Shown here piece after piece: positions 10,611 through 51,449 of a stretch of DNA of 64,000 bases. The stretch lies in NCBI GenBank assembly GCA_028712695.1, contig JAQTQZ010000005.1, forward strand, positions 86,514-150,513. Reading direction: 5' to 3'. The stretch is from Methylovulum sp. GTDB taxonomy: Bacteria; Pseudomonadota; Gammaproteobacteria; Methylococcales; Methylomonadaceae. The notes under the pieces were generated by a model that was not told the DNA's origin, ran no database searches, and saw nothing but the letters and a program-made list of their open reading frames with translations. A program made the translations under genes and the position numbers. Position 1 is the stretch's first letter. Each line of letters begins with the position of its first letter.

Positions 10611-13600
10611 AATTCTATTTCCTCGTAATCAGTTTCATCATGTTGTTGCGCTGCGTTGTCGGCCTGTTTGCGGATCCAGACAGCCAGATTTATTTTTTCC
10701 GCCAGTTTTTCCACCGTGCCGGTGTCGAACAGTATTTTCAGCGGCAATTCGATGTTAAAAGCCCGACTCATACGGGAGACCAATTGTGTCGCAAGCAACG
10801 AATGGCCGCCCAACTCAAAGAAATGGTCGTCGACACCGACCCGCTCGACCGCCAGCACCTCGGCCCAGATCTCGGCCAGCAGGGTCTCGGTGGCGGTGCG
10901 CGGTGCGATGTACTGTTTCTTGAGCTGTGCGCAAACATCAGGCGTTGGCAAGGCCTTACGGTCCAGTTTGCCATTTGCGGTCAAGGGCATCCCGTCCAGA
11001 AACACATAGGCATTCGGCAGCATATAATCCGGCAACGAGGTTTTCAGGTAAGCGTTAAAGCCATCGGCAGCCAGAGACCCGCTTGGGCTGACGATATAAG
11101 CGGTCAATCGCTGGTCGCCGGGGCTGTCTTCGCGCACCAGCAGCACGCATTCCTTAACTTCGGGGTGCTGCAACAGCCGGTTTTCGATTTCGCCGAGTTC
11201 AATCCTGAAGCCACGGATTTTGACCTGGTGGTCGATACGGCCTGCGTATTCCAGCTCGCCGTTGGGCCGGTGACAGGCCACGTCGCCGGATTTGTACAAG
11301 CGGCTGCCAGGCTTGCCGAATGGGTTGGGGATGAAGCGTTCCGCCGTCAAATCGGGGCGGTTGAGATAACCCCTCGCCAGCCCCGCGCCGCCGACATGCA
11401 GTTCGCCACGGCTATTGACCGGACACAGGTTCAGGCTGGCGTCCAGCAGATAGGCCTGCAAGTCTGAAATCGGCCTGCCGATGGGGCTAACCGCCGCGCC
11501 GTCCAAGTCTTGCCGGGCCAACGGGCGGTACGTGACATGCACGGTGGTTTCGGTGATGCCGTACATATTCACCAGCTGCGGGCATTGGTCGCCATGCCGG
11601 TCGAACCAAGGCTCCAGGCTTAACGGCTCCAGTGCTTCGCCGCCGAAAATGACCAGCCTCAGCGTGTTTTCCGCCGCCTCGCCGCCCAACTGTTCCTCCA
11701 CCCGCATCAGTTGCAGGAATGCCGACGGGGTTTGGTTGAGCACGGTGACCCTCTCCGTTTGCAGCAGGCGATAAAATTCTTCGGGTGAGCGGCTGAGCCA
11801 GTAAGGCACAATGACCAAGCGACCACCGTGCAGCAATGCGCCCCAAATCTCCCAGACCGAAAAATCGAAGGCGTAGGAATGGAACATAGTCCAGACATCC
11901 TGGCTGCTTATTTGGAATTGCGTCTGGGTGGCGGCGAACAGCCGCAGGACTTCATGATGCGACACCATCACGCCCTTGGGCTGACCGGTCGAACCGGAGG
12001 TATAAATGATGTAGGCCAGTTGCAGCGGATAGCTTACAAGGCCGGGATTGCTGGTTGGTTGCAGTGCAATCTTCGGCCAATCGCTATCGATGCACAAACA
12101 GGCGATCGGTAGTTCCGGCAGCAACGGCAGCAAGCCAGCCTGCGTGACCAGCACCGTTGCGCCAGCATCTTGCAGCTGGTAGGCGATACGTTCTTCAGGA
12201 TAACCAGGGTCTAGCGGCACATAAGCACCACCTGCCTTGAGGATGCCCAACAAAGCAACCATCATGTCCAGCGAGCGGTCGAGACAAACCGCCACTGGAA
12301 CATCTTGGCTTACGCCCCGCGCGATCAGTTCATGCGCCAGTTGATTGGCCCTCGCGTTCAGTTCCGCATAGCTTAGCGGACGGCCTTCAAACACGATGGC
12401 AACAGCATCCGGCACGGTGGCGGCTTGCTGTTCGAAGCATCCGTGCAGGCTGCCGTGTTGCGGGCAAGCAATGGCCGTATCGTTCCATCCATCGGTCAAC
12501 AGCCGTTGCTCGCTGGCGGGCAGGAAACACTGGCGGTCATGGTGATGCAACGGGTTTGCCGCCATATCTTCCAGCACATTGGCAAAATAAGCGCTAATGC
12601 CACTGACTTGCGCAGGTGATAATTTTTTATCGTCCCCAGCCACCAAAAGTTGCAGCTGCCCGCTTTGAATGTCCAGATGGAAAGCGATGCCCAACGTGAA
12701 AATCGCTTGGATATGGTCGTCCCAGCCCAGAATTTCCACGTCATCCGAATTCAGCAAGTCGCCTGCGATGTGGTAATGCAAATAGTAAAACATCGCATCG
12801 AACAGCGCCGCCCCTTGCCGCTCCTGTTGGAGTTGCGCGAGCGGATAAAACCGGAATTTCAGCAATTCCTGCTCGGCGCCAAATACCTGAAGGATCAAGT
12901 CCCGCCACATACCGCCGCCCAACTGTATAGGGAACGGCAACGTGTTCAGGAATACGCCCAGCGCCTTGTCGGCATCGGCGGTCTCCGGCCGGATGCTGCA
13001 CACCAGGCCGCTCGTGAAATTGCGTTCGCCGTACAACATGCCCAGCACTTTAAGATGGGCCGCCAGCAGCACGGTTTTTAACGGCACGGCCAAGGACTTC
13101 GCCAATGCCTGCAAGCCGTGCGTCAGCTCCGGCGATAGCGTGGTCAGTTGTTTGGTCTTGGCGGGATCGCCGGATTCCTTATCCACTCCGGCAGCGGACG
13201 GTAAAGTCGGGTGCGCCGCGTCCGCCAACCTTTGCCGCCAATATTGGCGGTGCGCTTCGGACTGCACGGCGGTACGTTCCCAGACGACTAAATCCCGCAA
13301 GGCATTGGCGGGCGGTGGCTCTGCGGTCTCCCTGCCACCGTCCAGTGACGCCCTATAGCCCATGAATATCTCGTTCAGCATCGACACCAAGCTCCAGCCA
13401 TCGAGTATCGCGTGGTGCTCGGTGACGGTGAAGCGCACGCGGTCGCCTTCGAATTGGTGGACATGAAAACGGATGAGCGGCGCTTTTGAAATGCTGAATG
13501 GTTTGGATTTTTCCTGCTCCAGCCACGCGTTAAATTGCGCTTGTTGCGCACCGGCGGACAAATCCCGCCAGTCTTCGATAGTAACGTCGGCCAATATGGC

Positions 13601-16600
13601 ATCGGCGCGGTAAACCAATTGCAGCGGCTCGCTGTAACTGCCCATCGCGAATGCCGTCCTCAATGCCGGATGGCGGGCGGTTGTCTGCCTGATCGCAGTT
13701 TGCAGTGCTTGGGCATCCAATCCAGAGCGCAGGTCGATGCTGTCCACCAGATGGTAGGCGGCGTTGTCGTACTCGCTATGAAAAATCATGCCCGCTTGTA
13801 GCGTTGACAGCGGATAAGCGTCTTCGACCGTGTCCGGCAGTAAGGCGCGGTCTGCTTCAGAAATCAAGCCGAACGGCACTTGCGGCGGTGCAGATGGTGC
13901 CACCAGCGCAACCGCTTGTATAGCCAAGCTGCGGATAGTTCCATGCCGGTATAGCTGTTCCAGACTGATTTCGATACCGCGCCCTTTCGCCAGATTAATG
14001 ACCTGCAGACTGCGTATCGAATCGCCGCCCAACGCAAAAAAATTGTCGTCAATACCGGCTTGCTCCACGCCGAGGACATCCGCCCAAATTGCCGCCAGCA
14101 CCTCCTCGACCGCCGTGCCCGGCGCGGCATAGACGGTTTCCCGCTGCGCCTGCCGGTCGGGGGCGGGCAGGGCCTTGCGGTCAAGCTTGCCGTTCGCCGA
14201 CAGCGGCAGCGCGTCGAGGAAGACGAATGCCGACGGCACCATGTAGTCGGGCAGGCTTGCGCCCAAATAGCCGCGCAACTGTCCGGCGCTGATGCTATCC
14301 GCCGGGTCTGCGACAAGATAGGCAACCAAACTCTTGCCGCCGTGCTGCTCTTCCCTCGCCAATACGGCGGCTTCTTTGAGGTCAGGATGGGTCTGCAACC
14401 GTGCCTCGATTTCGCCCAGCTCGATGCGGAAGCCACGGATTTTGACCTGGTGGTCGAGGCGGCCCAGGTATTCGATGTCGCCGTCGGCACGGCGGCGGCA
14501 CAGGTCGCCGGTTTTGTACAGGCGGCCGCCCGGCGTGCCGAACGGGTCGGGGATGAACTTTTCGGCGCTCAGCCCGGCGCGGTTCAGGTAGCCACGGGCG
14601 AGGCCGATGCCGCCGATGTGCAGCTCGCCGGGGATGCCCACGGGGACGGGGTTGAGCGCGTGGTCGAGGATGTGCAGGGTGATGTTGGCGATGGGTTTGC
14701 CGATGGGCACGGTGGCGCCGGGGTCGTGCGGGCACGGCCAATAGCTGACGTCGACCGAGGCTTCAGTCGGCCCGTACAGGTTGTGCAATTGCGCGCCGCT
14801 GTGCTGGTGGAAACGCCTGACCAGTCCGGCGGGCAAGGCTTCGCCGCTGCAGATGACGCGAACCAGTGACGTGCAGATGGCCACGCCGGGCGTGTCGAGG
14901 AAGGCCTGCAGCATCGACGGCACGAAATGCAGCGTGGTGATGCGGTGTTCATTGATGAGGCCGATGATTGCCTGGCTGTCCTTGTGCTGTTCCGGCGGCG
15001 CCATGACCAGCGTGGCGCCGCTCATCAGCGGCCAGAAGAATTCCCAGACCGAGACGTCGAAGCTGTACGGGGTTTTTTGCAAGACCCGGTCGCTGGCATC
15101 AAGCCGGTATTCGGCCTGCATCCATTGCAAGCGGTTCAGGATGCCTTGGTGCGGCACCGCCGCGCCTTTCGGCTGGCCGGTCGAGCCTGAGGTGTAGATG
15201 CAGTAGGCCAGATGCCCGGGCAGCAGCTCGGCCTTGGGATTGGTCAGCGGCTCACCGGCCAGCCTCGGCCACTGCGTGTCCAGGCACAGCCGCCGTGCCG
15301 GACTTCCGGCCAGTTTGTCCTGCAGCGGGCTTTGTGTCAGCACGACCGGCGGGTTGACGTCGCCCAGCATGAAGTCCAGCCGTTCCTGCGGGTAGCTCGG
15401 GTCCAGCGGCACATACGCACCGCCCGCCTTCAGGATACCCAGCAACGCCACGACCATGTCCAGCGAGCGTTCCATGCAGACGCCGACCAAGACATCCGGG
15501 CCAACGCCCAAGCCTTGCAGGTGATGCGCCAACTGGTTGGCCTTCATGTTCAGTTCGGCATAGCTCAAAAAGCGCGGCCCGAGCTGCACGGCGACGGCGT
15601 CCGGTGTGGCCTCCGCCTGTTGCTCGAACAGCTGGTGCAGCCATAGGCCTTGCGGATAGGCCTCATCGGTGGCGTTCCAGGCGTTAAGTTGTATGGCTTC
15701 GTCCGCTGTTAACAAAGATATGTCGGCCAGCCTTGCCGCACTAGGGTTGGCCAGACTTTCAAGAATCGCTTCAAAATGGTCGAGCATGCCGATGATGGCC
15801 TGTTCATCGGCATAACCTTGGTCGTAACTTAGCGTTATTTCTAAGTTGACGTCCGGCACCACCGTAACGGTTAATGGGTAGTTGGTCTGATCTTTGATCG
15901 TTATGCCGGAAACCGACAGGCCGCCCATTTGCCCGCGTAACGCTTTGTCGGCGGGATAGTTTTCAAAAACCAGCAGGCTATCGAATAGCGCCCGACCCGC
16001 CGGAATGTCGCTCCAGCCGTTAATGTTGACCAACGGCGTGTATTCGTACTGGCGCAGCGTCATATTCTGTTCCAGCAGTTGCTTAAGCCATACCGCACAT
16101 TCAGCGGCATCCGGTACTTGGACGCGTAGCGGCAGCGTGTTGATAAACAATCCGGTCATTGCCTCAATGCCATCCAAGTCCGCTGGCCGACCTGACACGG
16201 TCACGCCAAACACGACCTCCCGCTCACCGCTGTACCGGCCCAGCAATATCGCCCAAGCACCCTGTATCAGCGTGTTCAGCGTCAAGCGCTGGTGTTGTGC
16301 GTAAGCTTGCAGCCGGGTGGTGCAGGTACTGGAAACAAGCCGCGTGTTTTGCCCATAACCGCCCGGCATAGCGGGCTTTTTATCGCCAAACAGCGGTGTC
16401 GGTGCGGTGAACCCCGCCAATGCACCACGCCAGTAGGTTTCGGCGGCCTGCATATCCTGCTGTTGCAGCCACGCTATATAATCGCGGTACGGCTTGGTGG
16501 CGAGTGGCCGGTATTCAAGCCCTGCGCTTAAGGCTTGGTAAGCGTCAAAAACATCTTTGAGCAGCAGCGACATGCTCCAGCCGTCCTGTAATAGGTGGTG

Positions 16601-19600
16601 AAAACTCCACGCGAAATAATGCCTGTCGTTGGCACAGCGGATCAGCGTCAAACGCATCAGCGGCGGCGTTGCAAAATCGAAGCCTGCTTGGCTTTCGGTG
16701 GTTTGAAAATCTTGCCAATACTGCGATTGTTCTTCTTTGGACAAATGTTGCCATTCCAGCTCAGACCAAGGTAGCGGAACATTGCGGCAGACGCACTGCA
16801 ACGGCATATCGGTATCCTTGACCAGAAAACCCGTCCGCAAAATGCTGTGCCGGTCTATGGTTTGTTGCCAAGCTTGTTTAAAAACCGGCACATCGAGCGC
16901 ACCTTCCAGACGGCAACCCAGCAATATGCAGTAAACGCCCGCTTCTTTTGCATAAAGGCTGTGGAACACCAGGCCTTGCTGTAGCGGCGTCAACGGATAA
17001 ATGTCCTCGATACGCGCAGGTGTCAACGCCAAGCTGTCCAGTTCCTGTTGGCTGATCTGTGCCAGAGGAAAATCGGAAGGCGTATAACCGCCGACTTCGG
17101 GCAAACAACAATGCCAAATCAGCTTCTGCAAATTGTGCAGGAAGGCCTGCGCGAGTGATCCGATGGTTCCGTCCTGAAAGCGCAGACGGCTGTATTGGAA
17201 GTCGGCCTGCAAGACACCGTGCTGGATCTTGGCGATGACGGCGATTTCATGGGCACGGCGGTTGGCATCGTCGCTGCTTGTCCCGCTGTCCTCAGCCGCC
17301 AGTTGATAAGGGCTGTCCGCTGGCAAGGCCGCATCGAGCCGGCCCAAGTAATTGAAGATGACCTGCGCGGCGGGTTGCCGCGCCAACGCCGCACCGGTTT
17401 TTCCGTCGCCCAGATAACGCAGCAGGCCGTAAGCGATGCCGTTGTCCGGCACTTGCCGCAATTGCTCCTTGACCGATTTGATCAGGCCGCCCGGCTCCCT
17501 GTCCGGCGGCAGCGCCAGCAGCACCGGATAAACGCTGCTGAACCAGCCGACAGTGCGGCTCAAGTCGATGTCGTCAAACAGCGCCTCACGTCCGTGGCTT
17601 TCCAGATCGATTTTTACTGTGTCGCCGCCGCTCCAGTCGGCTAAGCTTTGGCCTAATGCCGCCAACAGGATGTCGTTGATGCGGGTATGGTAAACGGCGG
17701 GCACTTTCTGCAATAAAACGGCTGTTTCCGCTTCATTCAACGCGACCGTCCAGCTTGCCGTGCTGGCTTCGCTATTGTTTCCTTGCGGCTCATCGACCGG
17801 TAATGGTGCAGCGTTCGGCTGACCCAACCAATAATTGGCGGCTTTTTGTACGGCTTCGCTTTGTACGCTTGCAGATAATTGCGCGGCCCATTGTTTGAAT
17901 GACGTGGTTTTCGGCGGTAACTTGACGGCCTGACCATCGGCCAGTTGCCGGTAGGCCGTATGCAAATCTTCCAACAGGATACGCCACGATACAGCATCCA
18001 CAACCAGATGATGGATGGCCCAAAATAAGCGTTGCGCCCCAGCTTTACGGCTATCGAACAGCACCACCGACATCAGCGGGCCTGCCGTCAGGTTAAGGCT
18101 GCGTTGCTGTTGCTTGCATGTCGTTTCGATTAAATCTTGCCGTTGTCCGGTAGCCACGGCATCCAAATCGACGCGCAAAAACGACGGCGCAAGCTGGTTT
18201 TGGTTGATGGCCTGCCAGCCGCCGTCTTGTATGGCAAACGTCTGGCGCAAGGCGTCGTGATGCCCGACTAACTGCAAGATAGCTTGTTGCAGCAGGTCGG
18301 GTTCCAGCCGCAGCGCCGATTGCAACAGCACGGCTTGGTTCCAGTGCTGCGGATTAGCCAGCCCCAGCTCGAAAAACCAGTGCTGGATAGGTGTCAACGG
18401 CATTGCCCCGGTGACCCTGCCCTGCTCCGCCTGGATTTTTCCGACCACCGCTGTGCCGATGCCTGCGCCAATAATCGCCGTCGCCAATTCGGCAATGGTC
18501 TGGTGTTGAAATAACTGCCTGGGCGTCAGTGTCAATCCCGCCTGATACGCGCGGCTGACCGTCTGGATGCTGAGTATCGAATCGCCGCCCAAGTTAAAAA
18601 AATTGTCATGGATGCTTAACTGCCCAATGCCCAGCAATTCAGACCAGATTGCCATCAGCGTTTGTTCGACGGCGTTGCGCGGGGCAACCGGCGCTTGCCC
18701 GTCGGTGTGTGATTGTTCGGGCTGCGGCAAGGCGTTGCGGTCCAGTTTGCCGTTAGGCGTCAGCGGCAGTTTGTCTAACGAGATAAAGACCGGCGGCACC
18801 ATGTAATCGGGCAGGCTCTGTCTGAGATAACTTTGCACGACCTGCGTTTCTGGCACGGGCTGTCCGGCGACGATGTAGGCCGTCAAGCGATGGTTGCCGG
18901 GCTTGTCTTCCCTGACCACTACGGCGGCTTCGTTGATGCCGGGATATTGCAGCAACCGGCTTTCAATCTCGCCCGGTTCTATGCGGTAGCCGCGGATTTT
19001 GACTTGGTTGTCAATGCGCCCCAAAAATTCGATGCTGCCGTTGGCGCGGAAACAGCCCAAGTCACCGGTTTTGTACAAACGGCTGCCTGGCATTGGGCTA
19101 AACGGATTGGGCATGAATTTGTCGGCCGTCATCGCGGGCTGGTTCAAATAACCGCCCGCCAATCCTGCACCGCCGATGTACAGCTCACCGCTAACGCCTA
19201 CCGGCACTGGCTGATGGTGGCGATCCAAAATGTAGATTTGCACTTGGTCTATGGCTCGGCCTATCGGCAACATCGACGGCAGTCCGGTTGGTTCGCTGTG
19301 CAATACGCTGCTCCATACCGTGGCTTCGGTGGGGCCGTATTCGTTATAAAAATTAACATCCGGCAAGCGCCGGTGATGTCCTGCCGCAACTTCGCCGGAG
19401 CAGGCTTCACCGGCGACGATCACCGTTTTCAACGAGCGTAATAACGGTGCGGTGCTGTCCGTCAAGATAGCAGTGTAAAAAGACGGCAAGGCCAATAAAT
19501 GGCTGACTTGCCACCGTTCAATCAATTGCGCCAGCGCTACGGGGTCGGCCAGTTCGTCTTGCTGCGGCAGGCATAAACAACCGCCTTGGATCAAGGTCCA

Positions 19601-21700
19601 GAAAATACCGGCGACCGAACTGTCGAACGCGAACGATGACAGCAGCAGGAAACAGCTGACTGGGTCTTGGTAATAATCCGTCCGCGTCAATGTCGATTGC
19701 AACAGGTTGCCGTGGCTGACCGGCACGCCTTTGGGCAGGCCGGTCGAGCCCGACGTGTAGATGATGTAGGCGGTGTTCCTGGCCGTTGCGCTTTGTTGTC
19801 CGCCAAGTGGTGCATCCGTGCTAAGGGTTGTGCTGCCCGGGCTATCCAGAAACAACATTTTTATGTCAGGCTGCCGGAACTGGCTGGCAAGATGGGATTG
19901 GGTCAACAACAATCCGATACCGGCATCATGCAGCATGTAGTCCAAGCGCTCGCTAGGATAGCTTGGGTCTAGCGGCACATAAGCCGCACCGGCCTTAAGC
20001 ACCGCCAGCAGGCCGACAATCAGTTCCAACGAGCGCTCGGCGCTGACGCCGACCCGGCTTTCCGCGCCCATGCCACAGGCGTTAAGTTTATCGGCGAGCA
20101 GGCTTACCCGGCGATCCAGCTCGCCGTAGCTGAGGCTTTGTCCGGCGAAAACCAACGCGGTTTTTTCCGGTGTGGCTTTCGCCTGCGCTTCAAAAAGCTG
20201 GTGGACCAGCGGCAAATCCTTATCTTGTCCCTTGGCTACGGCTGGCCTGTTCCAGTCGAAGAGCACTTGCCGATGTTCCTGCGTGGTCAGCAGCGGCAAT
20301 TGCGTTATCGGTAAATGCGGGTCGCAGGCCGCGCCCGCCAGCAAGGTCTGCAAATGTCCCGCCATCCTTGCCAAGGTGGCGGCGTCAAACAAATCGGTGT
20401 TGTATTCGAAGACACCGCGCAACTGGCCGTCCGTTTCTTCGATGAACAGCGTCAAATCAAATTGCGCGGTGTGGATGTCCAAATCTTCCGGTGTCGCCGT
20501 CAAGCCCGGCATCTGCAAAACCGTCGTCGGCACATTTTGCACAGCCAGCATCACTTGGAACAGCGGCGCATGGCCAGCATGGCGTCTAGGGTTCAGCGTT
20601 TCCACCAACTGCCCGAAGGAAAAATCCTGATGGGCCATATCTTGTAGGGACTGCTCGCGGATTTCGGCCAGCAGTCCGGCAAAAGACAAGCCACCTGATA
20701 AGCGGCAACGCAAAACCAGCGTGTTGACGAAAAAACCGATCAGCCCGGCGGTCTGGAGCTGGTTCCGCCCCGCCACCGGATAGCCCACCGTGATGTCGTT
20801 GCTGCCGCTGTAACGGTGCAGCACACTAGTGAATGCCGCCGCCATGACCATAAACAACGTGGCGTTATGCTGCTTGCCCAGCACATTAAGCGCAGTGCTG
20901 AGCGGTTGGGCAATCTCAAAACCATACCCGGCACCGCGATAGCCTTGCACCGGCGGCCTGGGATGGTCGGTGGGCAAACCCAACAGCGGCGGGGTGTCAT
21001 GCAATTTTTGCAGCCAGTATCCCAGATGTTTTTCGTTGCGTTCCGTTTGCTGCCGTTGCCAAGCGGCATAATCGCCGTATTGTATCGCCGGTTCCGGTAA
21101 GCTTGACGGCAAGCCAGTGCTGAATGCCGCATAAAGCGCCGCCACTTCGTTCATTAACACTCCGACCGACCAGCGGTCGGCGACGATATGGTGCAGCACC
21201 AGCACCAGCCGGTATTGCCCATGCTCCAATGTAGCCAACATGCCCCGTAGTGGTGGGGCTGACGACAAGTCAAACGGGGCACGGTTGAAAGCCGCCGCGC
21301 AATCCTGAAAGCAGCTTGACGGGACGCCCGTCAAATCCAGCCGTAACAGGGCTAATCCGTTATCCGGCATCACGCATTGGACAGCCTGATGGAATTCACC
21401 GACAAACCGGCTGCGTAATATTTCATGCCTGCGGATAACTTCGTCCAAACTTTGCTGCAAGGCTTCCCTATTCAACGCGCCGTCAAAACGTATTACGCCC
21501 GCCATGTTGTATATCGGGTTGCCAGGTTCCAGTTGCGACATGATCCAGAGCCGTTCCTGGGCATAAGACAACGGTGCGGGCATGTCGGGCGGACGCTTTG
21601 TAATTGGCTTGCCCGCCGCGTTGTTTTTGTTGAGCTGCAATATGAGTTTTGCGCGGTTGTTGCGGGAGGTTTCGTTATTTATTAGGGATGCTTGCGGCAT
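10607..21700 (-). CDS. Non-ribosomal peptide synthetase, 3697 aa: C-A-PCP-E-C-A-PCP-C-A-PCP
   Basis: Long ORF with C (PLSYAQERLWIMSQLEP, HHIVADRWS), A (SSFAFDSSVAGIFWTL), PCP (FFNLGGDSILSIQ), E (MPLTPIQHWFFE, HHLVVDAVSWRILLEDL), C (DIYPLTPLQQGLVFHSLY), A (SFDVSVWEFFWPL), PCP (FFALGGDSIRSLQ), C (DAYPLSTLQAGMIFHSEY, HHAILDGWS), A (AFDFSVWEIWGALL), PCP (FFELGGHSLLATQL). Confidence 0.97.
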   Translation of the reverse strand: MPQASLINNETSRNNRAKLILQLNKNNAAGKPITKRPPDMPAPLSYAQERLWIMSQLEPGNPIYNMAGVIRFDGALNREALQQSLDEVIRRHEILRSRFVGEFHQAVQCVMPDNGLALLRLDLTGVPSSCFQDCAAAFNRAPFDLSSAPPLRGMLATLEHGQYRLVLVLHHIVADRWSVGVLMNEVAALYAAFSTGLPSSLPEPAIQYGDYAAWQRQQTERNEKHLGYWLQKLHDTPPLLGLPTDHPRPPVQGYRGAGYGFEIAQPLSTALNVLGKQHNATLFMVMAAAFTSVLHRYSGSNDITVGYPVAGRNQLQTAGLIGFFVNTLVLRCRLSGGLSFAGLLAEIREQSLQDMAHQDFSFGQLVETLNPRRHAGHAPLFQVMLAVQNVPTTVLQMPGLTATPEDLDIHTAQFDLTLFIEETDGQLRGVFEYNTDLFDAATLARMAGHLQTLLAGAACDPHLPITQLPLLTTQEHRQVLFDWNRPAVAKGQDKDLPLVHQLFEAQAKATPEKTALVFAGQSLSYGELDRRVSLLADKLNACGMGAESRVGVSAERSLELIVGLLAVLKAGAAYVPLDPSYPSERLDYMLHDAGIGLLLTQSHLASQFRQPDIKMLFLDSPGSTTLSTDAPLGGQQSATARNTAYIIYTSGSTGLPKGVPVSHGNLLQSTLTRTDYYQDPVSCFLLLSSFAFDSSVAGIFWTLIQGGCLCLPQQDELADPVALAQLIERWQVSHLLALPSFYTAILTDSTAPLLRSLKTVIVAGEACSGEVAAGHHRRLPDVNFYNEYGPTEATVWSSVLHSEPTGLPSMLPIGRAIDQVQIYILDRHHQPVPVGVSGELYIGGAGLAGGYLNQPAMTADKFMPNPFSPMPGSRLYKTGDLGCFRANGSIEFLGRIDNQVKIRGYRIEPGEIESRLLQYPGINEAAVVVREDKPGNHRLTAYIVAGQPVPETQVVQSYLRQSLPDYMVPPVFISLDKLPLTPNGKLDRNALPQPEQSHTDGQAPVAPRNAVEQTLMAIWSELLGIGQLSIHDNFFNLGGDSILSIQTVSRAYQAGLTLTPRQLFQHQTIAELATAIIGAGIGTAVVGKIQAEQGRVTGAMPLTPIQHWFFELGLANPQHWNQAVLLQSALRLEPDLLQQAILQLVGHHDALRQTFAIQDGGWQAINQNQLAPSFLRVDLDAVATGQRQDLIETTCKQQQRSLNLTAGPLMSVVLFDSRKAGAQRLFWAIHHLVVDAVSWRILLEDLHTAYRQLADGQAVKLPPKTTSFKQWAAQLSASVQSEAVQKAANYWLGQPNAAPLPVDEPQGNNSEASTASWTVALNEAETAVLLQKVPAVYHTRINDILLAALGQSLADWSGGDTVKIDLESHGREALFDDIDLSRTVGWFSSVYPVLLALPPDREPGGLIKSVKEQLRQVPDNGIAYGLLRYLGDGKTGAALARQPAAQVIFNYLGRLDAALPADSPYQLAAEDSGTSSDDANRRAHEIAVIAKIQHGVLQADFQYSRLRFQDGTIGSLAQAFLHNLQKLIWHCCLPEVGGYTPSDFPLAQISQQELDSLALTPARIEDIYPLTPLQQGLVFHSLYAKEAGVYCILLGCRLEGALDVPVFKQAWQQTIDRHSILRTGFLVKDTDMPLQCVCRNVPLPWSELEWQHLSKEEQSQYWQDFQTTESQAGFDFATPPLMRLTLIRCANDRHYFAWSFHHLLQDGWSMSLLLKDVFDAYQALSAGLEYRPLATKPYRDYIAWLQQQDMQAAETYWRGALAGFTAPTPLFGDKKPAMPGGYGQNTRLVSSTCTTRLQAYAQHQRLTLNTLIQGAWAILLGRYSGEREVVFGVTVSGRPADLDGIEAMTGLFINTLPLRVQVPDAAECAVWLKQLLEQNMTLRQYEYTPLVNINGWSDIPAGRALFDSLLVFENYPADKALRGQMGGLSVSGITIKDQTNYPLTVTVVPDVNLEITLSYDQGYADEQAIIGMLDHFEAILESLANPSAARLADISLLTADEAIQLNAWNATDEAYPQGLWLHQLFEQQAEATPDAVAVQLGPRFLSYAELNMKANQLAHHLQGLGVGPDVLVGVCMERSLDMVVALLGILKAGGAYVPLDPSYPQERLDFMLGDVNPPVVLTQSPLQDKLAGSPARRLCLDTQWPRLAGEPLTNPKAELLPGHLAYCIYTSGSTGQPKGAAVPHQGILNRLQWMQAEYRLDASDRVLQKTPYSFDVSVWEFFWPLMSGATLVMAPPEQHKDSQAIIGLINEHRITTLHFVPSMLQAFLDTPGVAICTSLVRVICSGEALPAGLVRRFHQHSGAQLHNLYGPTEASVDVSYWPCPHDPGATVPIGKPIANITLHILDHALNPVPVGIPGELHIGGIGLARGYLNRAGLSAEKFIPDPFGTPGGRLYKTGDLCRRRADGDIEYLGRLDHQVKIRGFRIELGEIEARLQTHPDLKEAAVLAREEQHGGKSLVAYLVADPADSISAGQLRGYLGASLPDYMVPSAFVFLDALPLSANGKLDRKALPAPDRQAQRETVYAAPGTAVEEVLAAIWADVLGVEQAGIDDNFFALGGDSIRSLQVINLAKGRGIEISLEQLYRHGTIRSLAIQAVALVAPSAPPQVPFGLISEADRALLPDTVEDAYPLSTLQAGMIFHSEYDNAAYHLVDSIDLRSGLDAQALQTAIRQTTARHPALRTAFAMGSYSEPLQLVYRADAILADVTIEDWRDLSAGAQQAQFNAWLEQEKSKPFSISKAPLIRFHVHQFEGDRVRFTVTEHHAILDGWSLVSMLNEIFMGYRASLDGGRETAEPPPANALRDLVVWERTAVQSEAHRQYWRQRLADAAHPTLPSAAGVDKESGDPAKTKQLTTLSPELTHGLQALAKSLAVPLKTVLLAAHLKVLGMLYGERNFTSGLVCSIRPETADADKALGVFLNTLPFPIQLGGGMWRDLILQVFGAEQELLKFRFYPLAQLQQERQGAALFDAMFYYLHYHIAGDLLNSDDVEILGWDDHIQAIFTLGIAFHLDIQSGQLQLLVAGDDKKLSPAQVSGISAYFANVLEDMAANPLHHHDRQCFLPASEQRLLTDGWNDTAIACPQHGSLHGCFEQQAATVPDAVAIVFEGRPLSYAELNARANQLAHELIARGVSQDVPVAVCLDRSLDMMVALLGILKAGGAYVPLDPGYPEERIAYQLQDAGATVLVTQAGLLPLLPELPIACLCIDSDWPKIALQPTSNPGLVSYPLQLAYIIYTSGSTGQPKGVMVSHHEVLRLFAATQTQFQISSQDVWTMFHSYAFDFSVWEIWGALLHGGRLVIVPYWLSRSPEEFYRLLQTERVTVLNQTPSAFLQLMRVEEQLGGEAAENTLRLVIFGGEALEPLSLEPWFDRHGDQCPQLVNMYGITETTVHVTYRPLARQDLDGAAVSPIGRPISDLQAYLLDASLNLCPVNSRGELHVGGAGLARGYLNRPDLTAERFIPNPFGKPGSRLYKSGDVACHRPNGELEYAGRIDHQVKIRGFRIELGEIENRLLQHPEVKECVLLVREDSPGDQRLTAYIVSPSGSLAADGFNAYLKTSLPDYMLPNAYVFLDGMPLTANGKLDRKALPTPDVCAQLKKQYIAPRTATETLLAEIWAEVLAVERVGVDDHFFELGGHSLLATQLVSRMSRAFNIELPLKILFDTGTVEKLAEKINLAVWIRKQADNAAQQHDETDYEEIEL

Positions 21701-21856: not shown

Positions 21857-23464
21857 TCATCCGGCATGCAAAAATATGTCGTCCTTGCCATACAAACGCC
21901 TGGCATCAACAAAGCCCTGTTCTTTACAAGCCACCAACACCTTATTGATTTCGGCGATGTAGGCGTCGTTGTCTTCCGGCTCCAAGGCCATGAAATATTG
22001 CAGCCACGGCTCGCGGCCTATCGCGTAGATGTAGACCTGGTTGCTTTGCACGGCCTGCAAAAGGTCTAGCGCCGCCGCCGCATCGCTGCCTTTCGAGCGG
22101 CGCGACTGGCATAGCTTATGGTCGGGGAGTTTCGGCAACAACGGGCCGTAAACCCAAGACAGCGGCGCACCGATACATTCCATGCCCAAAAAGACCGTGT
22201 TGATTGGCCCAAAATCTTGGCACAGGTTTTCGTACATGCGTTTGTCGAGACAATTGGAATCCGCCGCAAACAGGATCTGCTTGTGGCCAGTGCGGATCAG
22301 GTAAGCGCTTTTGGCATGCGGCAAATCGTTGTGTTCGCCAAGGAACGGCGCGGCAATGATTGCGCCGCCGGGAAAGGGGATAGTATCCAGCGGGTCGACT
22401 TCGACGACATGGCTAAAACCCATTTCGCGGGCCAGCAGTTTCAATGAAATATCGCCGTAAAAAATGCCTGAGCTTTTTGGCACCACCAAGCAACCGATTT
22501 TATGCCGCAAACGCAACAGCGTTTCAAAGACATAATGGTCGTGATGGACATGCGTGATCAGCACGTAATCAATATGCTGCGGCAAGTCTTGGAAGGTATA
22601 ACGGCTGATGCCGCCCTCACTGGGTTGCACCGAAATAAAGGGGTCGATCAATATTGCCAAGCCGTTGAATTCGACCAAGACGCTGGCATGGCCGAGATAA
22701 CGGATACGCACGCCGGGGCCTTGCCAAGCCTCTGATCTTTTGGACGGCTGTTCGGTCAGCAGCCCCATAAGTTTGTCTTCATCGGCGGCATCCAACCCCA
22801 GCAATTCGCGGATATAGCCCAATGTCTGGGGATGGCTGTCCAGCTTGAAGAGTTCATCTATTTCCGCTTGGGCAAACGGGATGTGCCATTCGACCGTGTC
22901 CTGTTCCGGCAGACGCGGTGTGCTCATATAATACGGGCGGGCGCGGTCATGGGTTTGGGTGAACAAACGCAGTGATTGCAGGTGTTTTTTATAATGCGGG
23001 CTTTGGTAAAACAGCCCCTCAATGCAGCGGACTATCGGGCGGCTGTTATAGTCGTAGAGCAGTTCGACCCGCCCTTTCAGCGATTCGGGCAGCTTTTCAT
23101 AATACGGCTCCAATGACTGTCCAACCGCCTCGTTGTCCAGCAAGTTCTGGAACGCCGTCAAATCCTGCGCCAGCTGCAATTCTTGGCCGTGTTCGTTTTC
23201 CATGCGCGACAGCAGCTGGGTGATTTCGCCAGAGCGGTGCGCCGGAATGTTAACAAACGGGCCGCCCAACAGCTTGGGGTTAGCGCTGGATTTAACGTGA
23301 ATATCAGGATTCTGCAGGTACGACGCCAGCGTTTTTTTCTGGTAATTCAGCATGTGCAGGCTATAGGGCACCGGCGAAAACGTGTGTGGCCACGCGACCC
23401 AGTGGTCGACCAAGGCTTCCACGGCGGTTGAATCGGCAAGACGGTATAAGGTTGGGTTATTCAT
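21857..23464 (-). CDS. MBL-fold protein of CmlA type; candidate di-iron beta-hydroxylase of a PCP-bound amino acid
   Basis: 535 aa: about 230-aa N-terminal domain, then a metallo-beta-lactamase fold with THVHHDH, a FLGEHNDL segment (Glu in the metal-ligand loop) and AADSN. Length and layout match the CmlA family; located between NRPS genes on the same strand. Confidence 0.8.
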   Translation of the reverse strand: MNNPTLYRLADSTAVEALVDHWVAWPHTFSPVPYSLHMLNYQKKTLASYLQNPDIHVKSSANPKLLGGPFVNIPAHRSGEITQLLSRMENEHGQELQLAQDLTAFQNLLDNEAVGQSLEPYYEKLPESLKGRVELLYDYNSRPIVRCIEGLFYQSPHYKKHLQSLRLFTQTHDRARPYYMSTPRLPEQDTVEWHIPFAQAEIDELFKLDSHPQTLGYIRELLGLDAADEDKLMGLLTEQPSKRSEAWQGPGVRIRYLGHASVLVEFNGLAILIDPFISVQPSEGGISRYTFQDLPQHIDYVLITHVHHDHYVFETLLRLRHKIGCLVVPKSSGIFYGDISLKLLAREMGFSHVVEVDPLDTIPFPGGAIIAAPFLGEHNDLPHAKSAYLIRTGHKQILFAADSNCLDKRMYENLCQDFGPINTVFLGMECIGAPLSWVYGPLLPKLPDHKLCQSRRSKGSDAAAALDLLQAVQSNQVYIYAIGREPWLQYFMALEPEDNDAYIAEINKVLVACKEQGFVDARRLYGKDDIFLHAG

Positions 23465-23610: not shown

Positions 23611-26600
23611 TCAGCATTCACTCGCCTGATAGTCGGCAACCCTATCGACAAGTTCGGCAATCGTCGGCGCTTCAAACAGCATTTTCACCGGCAATTCCAG
23701 CGCGAATAATTCCTGTACCCGCAACATGATTTGGACGCCCGATAGGGAATGCCCGCCGAGCTCGAAAAAATTGTCATGGATGCACAGCCGGTCAATACCG
23801 AGGGCTTCCCTCCAGATACCGGCGATGGCGGCTTCGGCCTCATCCCTGGGCGCGACCGGTTCACGTTGCGCCAAACGCAGGGCTTCCGGTGCAGGCAAGA
23901 CGGCCCGGTCCAATTTGCCGTTGGCGTTTAACGGCAAGGCCGCCAAAAACACGAATGCGCCGGGCACCATGTAATCCGGCAGGCTGTCACTGAGCAGTGT
24001 TTTTAATGTTGCCGCCGCCACCGTTTCAGCTTGCTTTGCGACGACGTAAGCAACAAGACGCCGGTTGCCGGGCGAATCTTCCCTAACCAACACAACGGCT
24101 TCTTTAAGCGCCGGATGTAGCAGCAAGCGCGATTCGATTTCGCCCAATTCAATCCGGTAACCGCGCAATTTGATTTGCGTGTCAATACGCCCGCAAAATT
24201 CGATAGCGCCGTCGGGGCGATAGCATGCCAAATCGCCGGTTTTATAGAGCCGGCTGCCCGCCTTGCCAAACGGGTTGGGCATGAATTTCTCCGCCGTCAG
24301 GCCAGGCCGGTTGAGATAACCGCGCGTGATGCCTTCGCCGCCGACATGCAGCTCGCCAGTAACGCCGACCGGAACCGGCTGTAGATGCCGGTCTAAAATA
24401 TAGCTTTGCATATTGCTGACCGGTCGGCCGATGCTGATTACGGTGCCGGTTTCTTGGGTGCCAACCGCATGGACGGTGCTCCAGACCGTCGCTTCGGTAG
24501 GGCCGTATTCGTTGTAAAGGCGGACATCCGGCAATAACTTGTGATGCTGGGCGGCAACACTTTCGGAACAGGCTTCGCCCGCGACAATCACGGTTTTAAG
24601 GCTGGCCAGCCGTGGTGCCGGAACATGCTCGAGCAGCGCGGCATACAGCGACGGCAACGCCAAGATATGCGTGACTTGCCGCCGCCCGATCAGTTCTCCG
24701 AGCGCGATGGGGTCTTTCGGCAAGCCGTCTTCAGGCAGGCATAAACAGCCTCCCCGGCTTAAAGTCCAGAAAATGCCAGCGACCGAGCTGTCGAACGCGA
24801 ATGACGACAGCAGCAAATAGCAGCCGACCGGCTCTTGATAATACTGGAACCTTGCCCACGTGGAATGCACGACATTGCGGTGGCTGACCATCACGCCCTT
24901 AGGCTTGCCAGTGGAACCGGACGTATAAATCAGGTAAGCGGTGTTGTTTGCAACTGCCAACGGGCGCAAGTCTTGTGTGCAGCAGTCCGCATACACTGGG
25001 GCGTCATTGTCCACACAGATGATTTCCGCCTGAGCGTGGGCGATGGCTCCGGTTAGGCCGGAACGGGCCAGCAAAAACTTACAACCGGCATCTTCCAGCA
25101 CATAGTTTTGCCGATCTAACGGATAAGATGGGTCAACTGGCACATAAGCCGCGCCCGCTTTAAGCACCGCCAGCAAGCTAACCAGCAATTCCAATGACCG
25201 TTCCATGCACACGGCGATCCGGGTTTCAGGGCCAACACCACGGGCACACAAATAATTCGCCAGCTGGTTTGATTTGGCGTTAAGTCCGGCATAACTCAAC
25301 GTTTGCTGCTGGAATACCGCCGCTGTTGAGTCTGGGGTTTTCGCCGCCTGTATTTCAAACCATTGGTGTATGCACAGATCGTATGGGTAAGCCAAACGCG
25401 TCTGGTTCCATGCGGTTAATTGGCGTTCGCGCTCGGAAACCGTCAACAACGGCAGTTCGGACAGGCGCATGTCGGGCTGGGCCAGAATCCCCTGCAACAG
25501 GCATTGGAAATGCCCTAACATGCGCAAGATGGTTTCGCGCGCGAACAGTTCGGCGCGGTACTGGAACGTGGCTGACAAACCGCCGTCGGCTTCCGCCATC
25601 ATCAACGTCAGGTCGAACTGGGCGATGCCTTCTGTTAATGCAAGTGATTCGGCGGTAACGCCCGGCCAGCCGATTGCCATCCCCGGCGTGCCCAAGGCCA
25701 GCGCAGCGGCGTCCGTGACGGCGCTTGCCCCGCCCTGCCAGACAAACATCACTTGATAAAACGGCCATAATCCGCCGCTGCGCTCAGGCTGCATTTTTTC
25801 CACCAGCAATGAGAACGGATAATCTTGATGCGCCAGACCGCCGAGCACGGTTTGCCTGACTTCCGCCAGAAAACCGGTGAATGTCTTAGCTCCGCTAGGC
25901 TTGGAGCGCAACGCGACGGGATTGACGAAATACCCGACCAAATCGGCAAAGTCCTGTTTAGGCCGACCCAGCGTAGGCGTGCCGATGATAATATCCTGCT
26001 GCCCGCTGTAGCGGTGCAGCAACACGTTAAACAAACCCAACAACACCGTATACAGCGTGGCGTTGTTGCACTCTGCCAAGTTACGGAGCTTTTGCACGGT
26101 TGCAGGGTCGATGCCCAGCGTTTCAGCGCCGCCGCGATAAGATGCCGCTAAAGCGCGCGGCCTGTCCAGCGGCAATTCCAGCTTCGGCAGTTCGCCTTGC
26201 AGATGGCCTCGCCAATATGCCAAATCCTGTCCGGCCTGTTCGCTGTCCAAGTAATTTTTTTGCCAAGCTATGTAATCGTCATAGCTTGCCGTCAACGGCG
26301 GCAAAAGCGCGGGGTGGCCCGCTATTTGCGCCGCATAGCCACATTTCAGCTCGTCCAGCAAAATGGCCAAGGAACGGAAATCGACGGCGATATGGTGCGC
26401 ACAAAACACGAGTACATGGTCGTCGGCGGTGCTGTACAGTTGGGCGCGCAGCAACAGGCCGTTTCCCAGATTGAAGGGTTGCCGCAGTTGGGCGTTGATT
26501 TTTTGTGCCCTCTCCTGGTCATCGGCACAATTGACTAGTTCCAGCAAAAATTGCGCGTCCGGCAACAGGCGCTGCACGGGTTCCATCGTTTTGTTGACGC

Positions 26601-28959
26601 CAAACACTGTGCGCAGTTGCCCGTGCCTGTCCAGCAGCCCCTGTAACGCGGCCTGCAAAGCTTGGGTATCAATGGCTGAACGGATGCGCAACGCAACCGG
26701 CATGTTGTAAACAGGGGTTTGTGGGTCTAAGCGGCAGACCGTCCAAATGGCCTGCTGTCCCAGCGATAGGGGTTGTTCCGCTCCCTGCCGCCTAGCTTCC
26801 TGGGCTGCAGCAACAACTGGCGTATTGTTTTTTGCCAGAGTCAGCGCATGTTCTGCGATAGCGGCAAGGGATCGGTCTTCAAGCAACAACGCCACAGGCA
26901 GGTTGATGTCCAGAAAGTCGTCGATAAAATACTTCAGTTCCATCGCCTTCAGCGAATCGATTCCCAGACCCATCACCGGCCTGTCCGCGCTACAAGTGGG
27001 GGCAAGGATTTGCTCCAAGGCCAGACCGGATAATGCCGCCACTTTGGCGGCCAAGTATTGCGTCAGCAAATGCACGCCGTCATCCGGCGACGCTAAAAGC
27101 AAGGCCTGACGCAACAAAGCCTGTTCTGGCAACGTTGGTTTTTTTGCCAGTCCGGTATCAACGTCTGGCATGGCAGCACCGCAGTTTTGCTGTGCTGCTT
27201 GATCCAGTTCATCCCGCGCAACCGCTGGCAACGAATCCTTTTCAAAAGCTTCCCGGCACGCGGAACGGCGGATTTTGCCGCTGGTGGTTTTCAGGATGGC
27301 GCCGGGCTTCAGCAAGACGATGGTGTCGAGCTGCACGCCGCAGTCCTCAACCACTCGGCTGCGTATTGCGGCGAATTCACGGCGATAATCGGCTTGCCGT
27401 AGACGGCTGCGTTTCAATTCGGCCAGCAGCACCAGCCGTTCGCCGCCCTCGTTGGTTACGGCAAATGCCGCGATGCAACCGGTGTTCAGGCAATCCACCG
27501 CCGCTTCGGCGGCGGCTTCCAAGTCGTGCGGGTAATAGTTGCAGCCGCGCACGATGATGAGGTCTTTGATGCGGCCGGAAACGAACAGCTCGCCATCATC
27601 GATAAAGCCAAGGTCGCCGGTACGCAGCCAGACCGTACCGTCGGTATCGGCAGCAAACGTTTCCGCCGTGGCTTTGGCATTGCGCCAGTAACCTTGGGCG
27701 ATGCTGGGGCCGCTCACTTGGATTTCCCCGGTTTGACCGTCTGCACATGGCGAGTGGGTTCCAGGCCCGGCTATCCTGATGGTGTGCCCCGCTCCAGCCG
27801 TCCCGCAGCCGACCAGTTTCCGGTAATCGGCGATTTGCACAGGATCGGCATAAGCCAGACGTTCCGCCAGCCGCGCTTTGTCGAAGGCTTTAACCGTAGG
27901 TGGCGTATTTTTTGCCGCACCAGTGACCAGCAATGTGGCTTCAGCCAGACCGTAGCACGGATAAAACGCGTCCCGACGAAACCCGCAACCGGCAAAAGCC
28001 TGCCCGAACCGCTCCAGCGTCGCCGCCTGCACCGGTTCCGCGCCGTTGAACGCCAGCCGCCACCCGCTTAAGTCGAGTCCGGCCTTATCTTCTTCGGTGA
28101 TTTTTTGCACACACAAATCGTAGGCGAAATTGGGGCCGCCGCTAGTATGGGCACGATAATCGGAAATCGCCTGTAACCAACGCAACGGCTGTTCCAGGAA
28201 AGCCAGCGGCGACATCAGGATAACCGGTGCGCCGCTGTATAAAGGCTGCATGATGTTGCCGATCAGCCCCATGTCATGGTAGAGCGGCAACCAGCCCACG
28301 ACAGTGGATTCGCTGTCATGGCCAAAACAGGCCTTGATCAGCTTTTGGTTCGCCATCAGGTTGCCGTGGCTAACCATAACGCCTTTGGCGTTGCCAGTGG
28401 AGCCGGAGGTATATTGCAGGAAAGCCAGCGAGCTAACGTCCAGACTGGGCCGAATAAATGAATCCGCACCGTCGGTGAGCGTGTCGGTCAGCAGCCAGCG
28501 TTGTTTGAGGCCGCTTTCGTTTTGCCACGCCGATACGGTTGCCGAACCGGCAAGCGCCGCCGTGCTGAGTATGGCCGCCGCCCCGCTATCGGCCAGGATG
28601 GCTTGCAAGCGCGGCAGGTTGCGTTGGTTGCGCGGCGGATAAGCAGGAACGGCGACAACACCCGCATAGAGACAACCAAAAAAAGCCGCGATATAGTCCA
28701 GCCCTGGGGCATACAGCAATAAGGCACGCCCGCCCTGCAGCCCTAAGTCCTGCAAATGGGCGGCAATAATGCGTGCTTGCTGGTCGAGGTCGCCATAACT
28801 GAGCGATAAGGCTTGGTTCCCGCCATCGGCAAGGAAGGTGTAGGCGGCTTTATGCGTCTGTTGCAGCGCCCGCAGGCGCAGCAGTTCAACTAAGGTAGAA
28901 GCGCCGTCGGCAACCACATCCGTGCCTTCTTCATGGAAATAATGCGGCGGCTGTTTCAT
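23611..28959 (-). CDS. Lipo-initiation NRPS, 1782 aa: fatty-acyl-AMP ligase (FAAL)-ACP-C-A-PCP
   Basis: N-terminus LRLRALQQTHKAAYTFLADG...LQYTSGSTGNAKGVMVSHGNL...GWLPLYHDMGLIGNIMQPLYSG (FAAL-type), ACP GLGIDSLKAMELKYFIDDF, C PLSLGQQAIWTVCRLDP / HHIAVDFRSLAILLDEL, A SSFAFDSSVAGIFWTLSRGG, PCP FFELGGHSLSGVQI. Confidence 0.95.
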   Translation of the reverse strand: MKQPPHYFHEEGTDVVADGASTLVELLRLRALQQTHKAAYTFLADGGNQALSLSYGDLDQQARIIAAHLQDLGLQGGRALLLYAPGLDYIAAFFGCLYAGVVAVPAYPPRNQRNLPRLQAILADSGAAAILSTAALAGSATVSAWQNESGLKQRWLLTDTLTDGADSFIRPSLDVSSLAFLQYTSGSTGNAKGVMVSHGNLMANQKLIKACFGHDSESTVVGWLPLYHDMGLIGNIMQPLYSGAPVILMSPLAFLEQPLRWLQAISDYRAHTSGGPNFAYDLCVQKITEEDKAGLDLSGWRLAFNGAEPVQAATLERFGQAFAGCGFRRDAFYPCYGLAEATLLVTGAAKNTPPTVKAFDKARLAERLAYADPVQIADYRKLVGCGTAGAGHTIRIAGPGTHSPCADGQTGEIQVSGPSIAQGYWRNAKATAETFAADTDGTVWLRTGDLGFIDDGELFVSGRIKDLIIVRGCNYYPHDLEAAAEAAVDCLNTGCIAAFAVTNEGGERLVLLAELKRSRLRQADYRREFAAIRSRVVEDCGVQLDTIVLLKPGAILKTTSGKIRRSACREAFEKDSLPAVARDELDQAAQQNCGAAMPDVDTGLAKKPTLPEQALLRQALLLASPDDGVHLLTQYLAAKVAALSGLALEQILAPTCSADRPVMGLGIDSLKAMELKYFIDDFLDINLPVALLLEDRSLAAIAEHALTLAKNNTPVVAAAQEARRQGAEQPLSLGQQAIWTVCRLDPQTPVYNMPVALRIRSAIDTQALQAALQGLLDRHGQLRTVFGVNKTMEPVQRLLPDAQFLLELVNCADDQERAQKINAQLRQPFNLGNGLLLRAQLYSTADDHVLVFCAHHIAVDFRSLAILLDELKCGYAAQIAGHPALLPPLTASYDDYIAWQKNYLDSEQAGQDLAYWRGHLQGELPKLELPLDRPRALAASYRGGAETLGIDPATVQKLRNLAECNNATLYTVLLGLFNVLLHRYSGQQDIIIGTPTLGRPKQDFADLVGYFVNPVALRSKPSGAKTFTGFLAEVRQTVLGGLAHQDYPFSLLVEKMQPERSGGLWPFYQVMFVWQGGASAVTDAAALALGTPGMAIGWPGVTAESLALTEGIAQFDLTLMMAEADGGLSATFQYRAELFARETILRMLGHFQCLLQGILAQPDMRLSELPLLTVSERERQLTAWNQTRLAYPYDLCIHQWFEIQAAKTPDSTAAVFQQQTLSYAGLNAKSNQLANYLCARGVGPETRIAVCMERSLELLVSLLAVLKAGAAYVPVDPSYPLDRQNYVLEDAGCKFLLARSGLTGAIAHAQAEIICVDNDAPVYADCCTQDLRPLAVANNTAYLIYTSGSTGKPKGVMVSHRNVVHSTWARFQYYQEPVGCYLLLSSFAFDSSVAGIFWTLSRGGCLCLPEDGLPKDPIALGELIGRRQVTHILALPSLYAALLEHVPAPRLASLKTVIVAGEACSESVAAQHHKLLPDVRLYNEYGPTEATVWSTVHAVGTQETGTVISIGRPVSNMQSYILDRHLQPVPVGVTGELHVGGEGITRGYLNRPGLTAEKFMPNPFGKAGSRLYKTGDLACYRPDGAIEFCGRIDTQIKLRGYRIELGEIESRLLLHPALKEAVVLVREDSPGNRRLVAYVVAKQAETVAAATLKTLLSDSLPDYMVPGAFVFLAALPLNANGKLDRAVLPAPEALRLAQREPVAPRDEAEAAIAGIWREALGIDRLCIHDNFFELGGHSLSGVQIMLRVQELFALELPVKMLFEAPTIAELVDRVADYQASEC

Positions 28960-29549
28960 AGCGCCGCCCGGTGCAAGTCGGCAGCCCTATCTGCGGCAAA
29001 CACGGACGCCAGCGCCAGTCCGGTCGGCACGGAAAAAGCCAGCACGTGTTTGCAAAAAGCATCCCATTCGGGTGTGCGGCGGTCAAACACGACGTCTTCA
29101 CCCTGCCACATCGACAGCGTCACGCTGAAATCCTGATGCAGATACACGACGGTGTCCGCATCCAGACCCGCCTGAATTTCCCGCCAATCTGGAAATTTTC
29201 TAAGGGCTTCGATGGGATAGGCTTTGCAATAAGCACGGCGTTCATCATCCACACAGATGCCTTTATCTGACTGCGCCTGATGCAGCAACGCGGCGCTTTC
29301 AACCTGAGCAGTAGCCAGCGCAATCTGGTAGGCCGTCCTGTTGTCGTGGCCGGTATGGCTAATGTCGGCACCGGCAGCCAAGAGTTTTTGGACAATGCCG
29401 GTATGACCCTTGGCTGCCGCCCAGTGCAATGCCGTCCAGCCGTAGCTGTCGCTTTGCCCGACCGTTGCTCCAGTGTCGAGCAAGGTTCCGATACGGTCAG
29501 CATCACCGGCTATTGCCGCTTCGATCAGCTTTAATTCACTCATAACCAA
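28956..29549 (-). CDS. Ankyrin-repeat protein
   Basis: SDSYGWTALHWAAAKGHTGIVQKLLAAGADISHTGHDNRTAYQIAL is ankyrin-repeat sequence; the stop overlaps the FAAL-NRPS start (28956-28959). Confidence 0.85.
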   Translation of the reverse strand: MVMSELKLIEAAIAGDADRIGTLLDTGATVGQSDSYGWTALHWAAAKGHTGIVQKLLAAGADISHTGHDNRTAYQIALATAQVESAALLHQAQSDKGICVDDERRAYCKAYPIEALRKFPDWREIQAGLDADTVVYLHQDFSVTLSMWQGEDVVFDRRTPEWDAFCKHVLAFSVPTGLALASVFAADRAADLHRAAL

Positions 29550-32558: not shown

Positions 32559-32559
32559 T

Positions 32560-32920: not shown

Positions 32921-33003
32921 GGAGGGAAACAGGCAGGCAGTTTTGCCGCCCACTCTAGGTATAAAGCAGGCGGCTTATTTGTTGTGATTAAGCCATTGGG
33001 GAT

Positions 33004-34212: not shown

Positions 34213-34355
34213 ATTGTCGGATAGGTTGGCCTTGCGGGAATGGCTAAGGCAGGTGTATGTTCCCAGTTAAACATCACGGATTTATCACGGAAATTTCAAA
34301 TAAATGTGATTTGAAAGACACCTCTAACATTGCTACCCTGTCCAATAATTTCCTC

Positions 34356-37591: not shown

Positions 37592-37682
37592 GGTGTTTAA
37601 TTTCTCTGGCGATGAGACTGTGGCTTTGATTGCGTATTTGATTGTCGGATCAATTCAAGGCTGGGTTAATAAGCCATTTGAG

Positions 37683-51408: not shown

Positions 51409-51449
51409 AATTTTAACTGCGTTGGAACGATAAAAGGTATGGGCGTAAC

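Follow-up and report, generated by a model that had tools for sequence, protein, structure and literature searches.

Which amino acid does a CmlA-type enzyme modify when its gene lies within a nonribosomal peptide synthetase (NRPS) operon of a Methylovulum genome, and what would the modified peptide be for? We examined this question for a gene in a window of 64,000 nucleotides (the whole stretch of DNA that was analysed), carried on contig C47 of a 3.8-Mb genome. The first-pass annotation had assigned the gene to the CmlA family, whose members hydroxylate amino acids tethered to peptidyl carrier proteins (PCPs), and had named a repeated residue of the assembly line, left as X, as the probable substrate. 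Our analysis points to histidine. We consider it likely that a CmlA/FrsH-type monooxygenase hydroxylates the carrier-bound histidine of at least one of three histidine modules, in a line that yields an acylated, metallophore-like octapeptide. The family, metal ligands, operon position, histidine codes, co-occurrence and neighbours are read from sequence, and from these we infer the activity, the histidine substrate, the number of histidines modified and the binding of metal.

A CmlA-type enzyme and its metal site

The gene is a single 535-codon open reading frame on the minus strand, and it stands in line with two NRPS genes across gaps of 146 and 156 bp (Table 1); its exact coordinates and its placement in an NRPS operon hold as first annotated. 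The N-terminal domain of about 230 residues that had been claimed is the Pfam domain CmlA_N at residues 8–240 (E = 1.4e-92; 309.6 bits, cut-off 25). The remainder is a metallo-beta-lactamase (MBL)-fold domain, matched by three MBL models, which gives the two-domain, ∼530-residue architecture of CmlA; no TauD domain was found in the protein by Pfam. When all PDB sequences were searched with phmmer, FrsH (8a90) was the best match at E = 2.1e-98, and CmlA matched at 9.6e-92 (4jo0) and likewise about 1e-91 (5kik and 5kil). These alignments span residues 7–528, essentially the full length, and bear out the family assignment; the next matches, none better than 1e-7, are to ordinary MBL proteins.

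Both of the motifs noticed at first pass, HxHxDH (here HVHHDH) and the glutamate in GEHNDL, line up with the metal motifs in the FrsH and CmlA structures. The ligand set comprises H305, H307, D309, H310, E377, D402 and E429, and it aligns one to one, Glu377 included, with that of CmlA, the founder of the family; Glu429 corresponds to CmlA Glu430, a metal ligand in that enzyme. Ala481 stands where MBL hydrolases have histidine. These residues are invariant in 13 of 13 methanotroph homologues, apart from H310, which is kept in 12. A comparison of MBL structures has identified Glu377 and Ala482 as features that distinguish CmlA from its hydrolase relatives (PMC7846560), and both are found here, as Glu377 and Ala481. 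The first-pass annotation had made its assignment depend on the metal site, and by its ligands this site is of the oxygenase type. An MBL-fold hydrolase, of a proofreading or release thioesterase type, scarcely deserves credence: general MBL models do match the C-terminal part, but the full-length CmlA/FrsH match, CmlA_N included, and the replacement of two hydrolase histidines by Glu377 and Ala481 make this reading unlikely, and none of the 13 homologues has histidine at either position. The evidence supports a full-length CmlA-family di-iron enzyme with an oxygenase-type metal site, not a chance resemblance. An AlphaFold model built from a shallow alignment of homologues was poor (mean pLDDT 62) and was not used for metal geometry; Foldseek ranked FrsH and CmlA first with this weak model (TM about 0.57, rmsd 11), a ranking that serves here as agreement only.

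Table 1. Positions in the window of the enzyme gene, its predicted metal ligands, the NRPS line and the metallophore-type genes
Feature	Positions	Strand	Basis or remark
NRPS C: four C-A-PCP modules (His, Thr, Ser, Orn) and tandem thioesterase; 4896 aa	3..10610	-	extends past the window to G000:C47:82433
Module 5 His-type A domain core	8106..8555	-	
NRPS B: C-A(His)-PCP-E-C-A(Ser)-PCP-C-A(Thr)-PCP	10607..21700	-	domain and code reading
Module 2 His-type A domain core	19304..19756	-	
CmlA-family di-iron beta-hydroxylase gene, 535 aa	21857..23464	-	Pfam CmlA_N and MBL domain; phmmer
Glu429 (CmlA Glu430)	22178..22180	-	alignment; invariant
Asp402 (CmlA Asp403)	22259..22261	-	alignment; invariant
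Glu377 (in GEHNDL; His in MBL hydrolases)	22334..22336	-	aligned to CmlA Glu377; invariant
HVHHDH metal motif, residues 305–310	22535..22552	-	aligned to CmlA/FrsH
NRPS A: FAAL-carrier-C-A(His)-PCP, loading module and module 1	23611..28959	-	Pfam/NCBIfam; A code DSALIAEVWK
Module 1 His-type A domain core (DSALIAEVWK)	24472..24924	-	
Ankyrin-repeat protein, conserved partner of the NRPS family	28956..29549	-	Pfam
FecR-type anti-sigma factor	47873..48856	-	Pfam/NCBIfam; with ABC and acylase genes at 4 related loci
Penicillin-amidase-type acylase, weakly PvdQ-like	49018..51465	-	Pfam 2.1e-164; PvdQ model 2.5e-16, below its cut-off
Cyclic-peptide export ABC transporter, PvdE type	51450..53114	-	TIGR01194, 460 bits against cut-off 286
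ECF sigma factor, FecI-like	53552..54115	+	domain matches
4'-Phosphopantetheinyl transferase	54515..55228	-	domain matches
PepSY-TM protein	58643..59851	-	Pfam; conserved at related loci
TonB-dependent siderophore-type receptor	61399..63945	-	TIGR01783, 351 bits against cut-off 223.5

The assembly line and its metallophore-type neighbours

The genome's nine condensation-type domains all lie in this NRPS line, the sole NRPS of the genome. One C-family match in NRPS B is an epimerization (E) domain, as judged by its HHLVVDAVSW and HGRE motifs. The line thus has eight C domains and one E domain for eight adenylation (A) domains or modules, plus a fatty-acyl-AMP ligase (FAAL) loading domain, and no surplus C-like interface domain was found in the window's line. 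Modules 1, 2 and 5 share the code DSALIAEVWK. The codes of the other modules, DVWHISLVDK (module 3), DFWNIGMVHK (modules 4 and 6), DVWHLSLIDK (module 7) and DVGEIGSIDK (module 8), presumably specify Ser, Thr, Ser and Orn, respectively. A survey published in 2025, covering 2051 bacterial A domains, gives DSALIAEVWK as a histidine code that tolerates beta-hydroxy modification (PMC12283262). The predicted product is acyl-His-D-His-Ser-Thr-His-Thr-Ser-Orn, an octapeptide in which the repeated X would be histidine. Beta-hydroxyaspartate was rejected as a ligand of this line, since there is no Asp code among its A domains.

The surroundings of the line vary among relatives. A small ankyrin-repeat gene precedes the FAAL-NRPS gene, and copies 46–54% identical lie beside related NRPSs in many methanotrophs; in G027 and G052 the gene instead follows the CmlA gene. 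Three related lines (G159, G107 and G165, at loci L034, L033 and L025) end in an NAD-binding reductase domain, as opposed to the tandem thioesterase of the window.

Genes for metal uptake and its regulation share the contig with the FAAL-NRPS gene, 19–35 kb away from it, and are closer in several relatives. At four related loci (G165, G107, G159 and G052), ECF, ABC transporter, acylase, FecR and receptor genes occur near the CmlA gene and the NRPS, at 38–62% identity, and the receptor is also found at two more (G110 and G027). By their sequences, these neighbours support a metallophore that would be made as an acylated precursor, then exported and deacylated. It is useful to compare this arrangement with pyoverdine maturation, which employs the PvdE exporter and the PvdQ acylase: members of the same superfamilies stand beside an acylated NRPS precursor in the window. 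Unlike the pyoverdine system, the window has an acylase whose score is far short of the PvdQ equivalog cut-off, and it has no hydroxamate genes. No Lys/Orn N-oxygenase above the family cut-off was found, and a hydroxamate formed by Orn N-oxygenation was rejected on that ground. Among genes of known chelator pathways, neither this type of oxygenase nor a TauD hydroxylase was detected.

Other genes accompany the two blocks. A sulfotransferase/SCP2 protein and a methyltransferase (57386–58576 and 59863–61293, both on the minus strand) lie among the receptor genes, recur in related loci, and may be further tailoring enzymes. Genes for an RND efflux pump, a membrane-fusion protein and an outer-membrane protein (39114–44789, minus strand) lie between the NRPS and the uptake genes, and a set of the same composition precedes the NRPS at G097, with 66–71% identity. 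The interval 30525–38924 holds a two-component system, DUF7482, SnoaL-like and other genes, which were not found between the blocks at the related loci inspected.

Which metal the product would bind is less clearly indicated than the presence of an uptake system. The FecI/FecR pair and the type of receptor suggest iron. Imidazoles favor Cu, Zn and Ni, and copper demand is high in methanotrophs. A search for Fur boxes found none, its best matches being 14/19 at three places and none of them at a promoter of interest. These points make copper or other metals possible. Histidine might accordingly be hydroxylated in a product other than an iron siderophore, either a metallophore that carries copper or some other metal, or a lipopeptide whose hydroxyls bind no metal. 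This alternative, which is compatible with the enzymatic part of our explanation, gains from the sister lines described below, since they imply that the beta-hydroxyls are dispensable, and from the existence of iron-binding lipopeptides that lack iron regulation (PMC9248904). We nevertheless regard it as unlikely, though deserving more weight than any other rival, because a FhuA/FoxA-like TonB-siderophore receptor above its family cut-off and FecI/FecR-type regulation are kept with the NRPS at several loci.

Histidine as the probable substrate, and lines without the enzyme

The case for histidine rests first on co-occurrence. Across 201 genomes of the family, His A domains are present in 17 of 18 CmlA-positive genomes versus 21 of 183 CmlA-negative ones (Fisher p = 2e-13, a value that ignores the relatedness of the genomes). 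NRPS neighbours occur at 14 loci of related CmlA genes, and wherever the NRPS beside a relative of the enzyme is assembled, His modules are present as well. The one CmlA-positive exception is an orphan homologue (L055), with no NRPS within about 18–21 kb. Second, a profile scan of A domains read three complete CmlA-positive lines as His-Ser-His, His-Ser-His-Ser and His-His-Thr-Ser-Ser-His; Pfam gave matching A-domain counts and a reductase domain at the end of each line, and module 1 of the second line comes from the profile scan alone. Because Ser and Thr already bear a beta-hydroxyl, histidine is the only sensible target for beta-hydroxylation in these three lines. Codes and co-occurrence together favor the earlier suggestion that the repeated residue is the substrate.

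The named relatives of the enzyme are from gammaproteobacterial methanotrophs, apart from one proteobacterium and one short fragment. Named hosts include Methylobacter tundripaludum SV96, Methylomonas koyamae, Methylomonas fluvii, Methylomicrobium sp. RS1, Methylovulum miyakonense and Methylovulum psychrotolerans, among others. A second CmlA clade (L015–L018, from G018, G024, G001 and G115) has HGHHDH instead of HVHHDH; its lines begin with a Ser, Gly or Thr-like module rather than His, and a His module follows the CmlA gene.

We propose the following sequence of events. The A domain would load histidine onto its own carrier as a thioester. The di-iron enzyme would dock in trans on this His-carrier, use its reduced di-iron site to activate O2, and insert oxygen at the beta carbon to give beta-hydroxyhistidine, as CmlA and FrsH do with their own substrates. 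A condensation domain would then extend the chain, and the tandem thioesterase would release the acyl-octapeptide. This product would leave the cell by the PvdE-like transporter and would probably lose its acyl group to the acylase; once loaded with metal, it would be re-imported by the TonB receptor, with ECF/FecR regulating the uptake. As many as three beta-hydroxyhistidines could provide three bidentate N,O chelating sites.

A family hydroxylase might instead act on something other than histidine, such as the FAAL-loaded acyl chain on its carrier or another residue, for example Orn. The CmlA gene does follow the FAAL-NRPS gene in the window, and sister lines have His modules without the enzyme. 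However, the substrates of characterised family members are amino acids bound to carrier proteins (PMC7794379). An acyl-chain substrate is further disfavored because FAAL is found in CmlA-negative lines too, and because a CmlA locus from another family (G334, 40% identity) has a His-coded module adjoining the enzyme, with no FAAL seen within 19 kb upstream. Orn occurs in just two CmlA-positive lines. Taken together, a substrate other than histidine seems improbable. A TauD-type Fe(II)/2-oxoglutarate hydroxylase encoded elsewhere was also considered as the source of the modification and rejected, since a domain search of the whole genome found no enzyme of this family; the lack of the usual siderophore hydroxylase is a third argument for the CmlA-type enzyme acting on histidine.

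Returning to histidine as the substrate, 21 genomes have His modules but no CmlA gene. Sister lines of this kind occur in G042, G015, G102 and G168, and code order can be nearly identical: His-His-Ser-Thr-Ser-His in CmlA-negative G042 against His-His-Ser-Thr-Ser-His-Gly in G052. In a tree built from 57 His A domains, the CmlA label has to change 14 times, and well-supported branches account for at least 11 of these changes. The closest relative of the module 1 His domain comes from a CmlA-negative draft genome (G004), in which the CmlA slot holds a protein that, from our reading of its sequence, resembles a phosphate transporter. A replacement hydroxylase was looked for at the CmlA slot of the CmlA-negative sister lines, and none was seen. 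When the His PCPs of CmlA-positive and CmlA-negative lines were compared, no separating signature survived multiple testing, and no PCP feature indicated which His would be hydroxylated.

Since sister lines carry His modules without the gene, these modules do not require the enzyme. Together with the label changes on the tree, this indicates a tailoring gene that has been gained and lost. Histidine hydroxylation may thus be optional tailoring rather than a core ligand step, and the beta-hydroxyls may improve rather than create metal binding. The same patchy distribution could reflect a passenger gene, inherited with the cluster and without a present role, and the orphan copy has lost a metal ligand (HVHHDY). 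We find this very doubtful, as all full-length copies in NRPS clusters keep every metal ligand at 69–81% identity, and decay is limited to the orphan. That copy (L055, also L014; 10001–11596; from an uncultured proteobacterium) appears to be decaying after parting from an NRPS.

Relation to known systems

FrsH, the di-iron Leu beta-hydroxylase of FR900359, is homologous over its full length and is the best match in the PDB by sequence and by fold ranking, and it acts in trans on a carrier-bound amino acid (PMC7794379); its product is a cyclic depsipeptide, whereas ours is predicted to be a His-containing, metallophore-like lipopeptide. CmlA hydroxylates the aromatic substrate p-aminophenylalanine in an antibiotic pathway, that of chloramphenicol. 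KasD (kasumigamide, PMC5061366) and CrpA (cryopeptin, PMC12181424) are likewise encoded by CmlA-type genes in NRPS clusters, but their proposed substrates are Phe and Val, respectively, and their products are not metallophores.

In siderophore pathways, the kind of step predicted here is carried out on NRPS-bound His or Asp by the beta-hydroxylases IBH_His, IBH_Asp and TBH_Asp, which are TauD-family Fe(II)/2-oxoglutarate enzymes with a fold and cofactor unrelated to those of the window's enzyme (PMC12971057). Their counterparts are absent from the genome, and its line has no spare interface domain for them. The first-pass statement that siderophore Asp hydroxylases are of this type is correct and extends to His; in the window's line the ligand is predicted to be beta-hydroxyhistidine, and there is no Asp module. 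Its further remark that a CmlA route to a siderophore ligand would be unusual stands insofar as our search, which covered the open literature, found no prior report linking CmlA with a siderophore or with beta-hydroxyhistidine. It is weakened by the chitinopeptin clusters, a partial precedent in which a CmlA-type gene accompanies iron-binding lipopeptides with beta-hydroxy amino acids. Those residues are Asp, Phe and Ile, production is not iron-regulated, and the description consulted mentions no siderophore uptake genes (PMC9248904). The enzyme family is known; as far as the open literature shows, the predicted histidine substrate and metallophore-type setting are new.

If correct, this reading would extend the substrate range of di-iron beta-hydroxylases to histidine, would mean that two unrelated chemistries can lead to a siderophore ligand, and would predict a defined product in cultured methanotrophs. 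Published mining rules for metallophores look for TauD-type hydroxylases (PMC12971057) and would therefore miss the gene. More broadly, and with somewhat less than even confidence, we envisage a family of His-rich lipopeptide metallophores in methanotrophs in which a CmlA-type rather than a 2-oxoglutarate enzyme makes up to three beta-hydroxyhistidines, giving a hexadentate tris-(beta-hydroxyhistidine) chelator. Such a ligand would have arisen independently, outside current chelator-based detection rules, and a single gene, gained or lost, would switch it on or off.

Sister lines that differ in whether they carry the enzyme form natural pairs for comparing what beta-hydroxylation contributes to metal binding. 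His-rich FAAL lipopeptide lines with metallophore-type neighbours and no CmlA gene occur in G042, G015, G102, G168 and G154 (loci L088–L098), where the neighbours are receptor- and PepSY-like genes, joined in some by genes of ABC transporter and acylase size.
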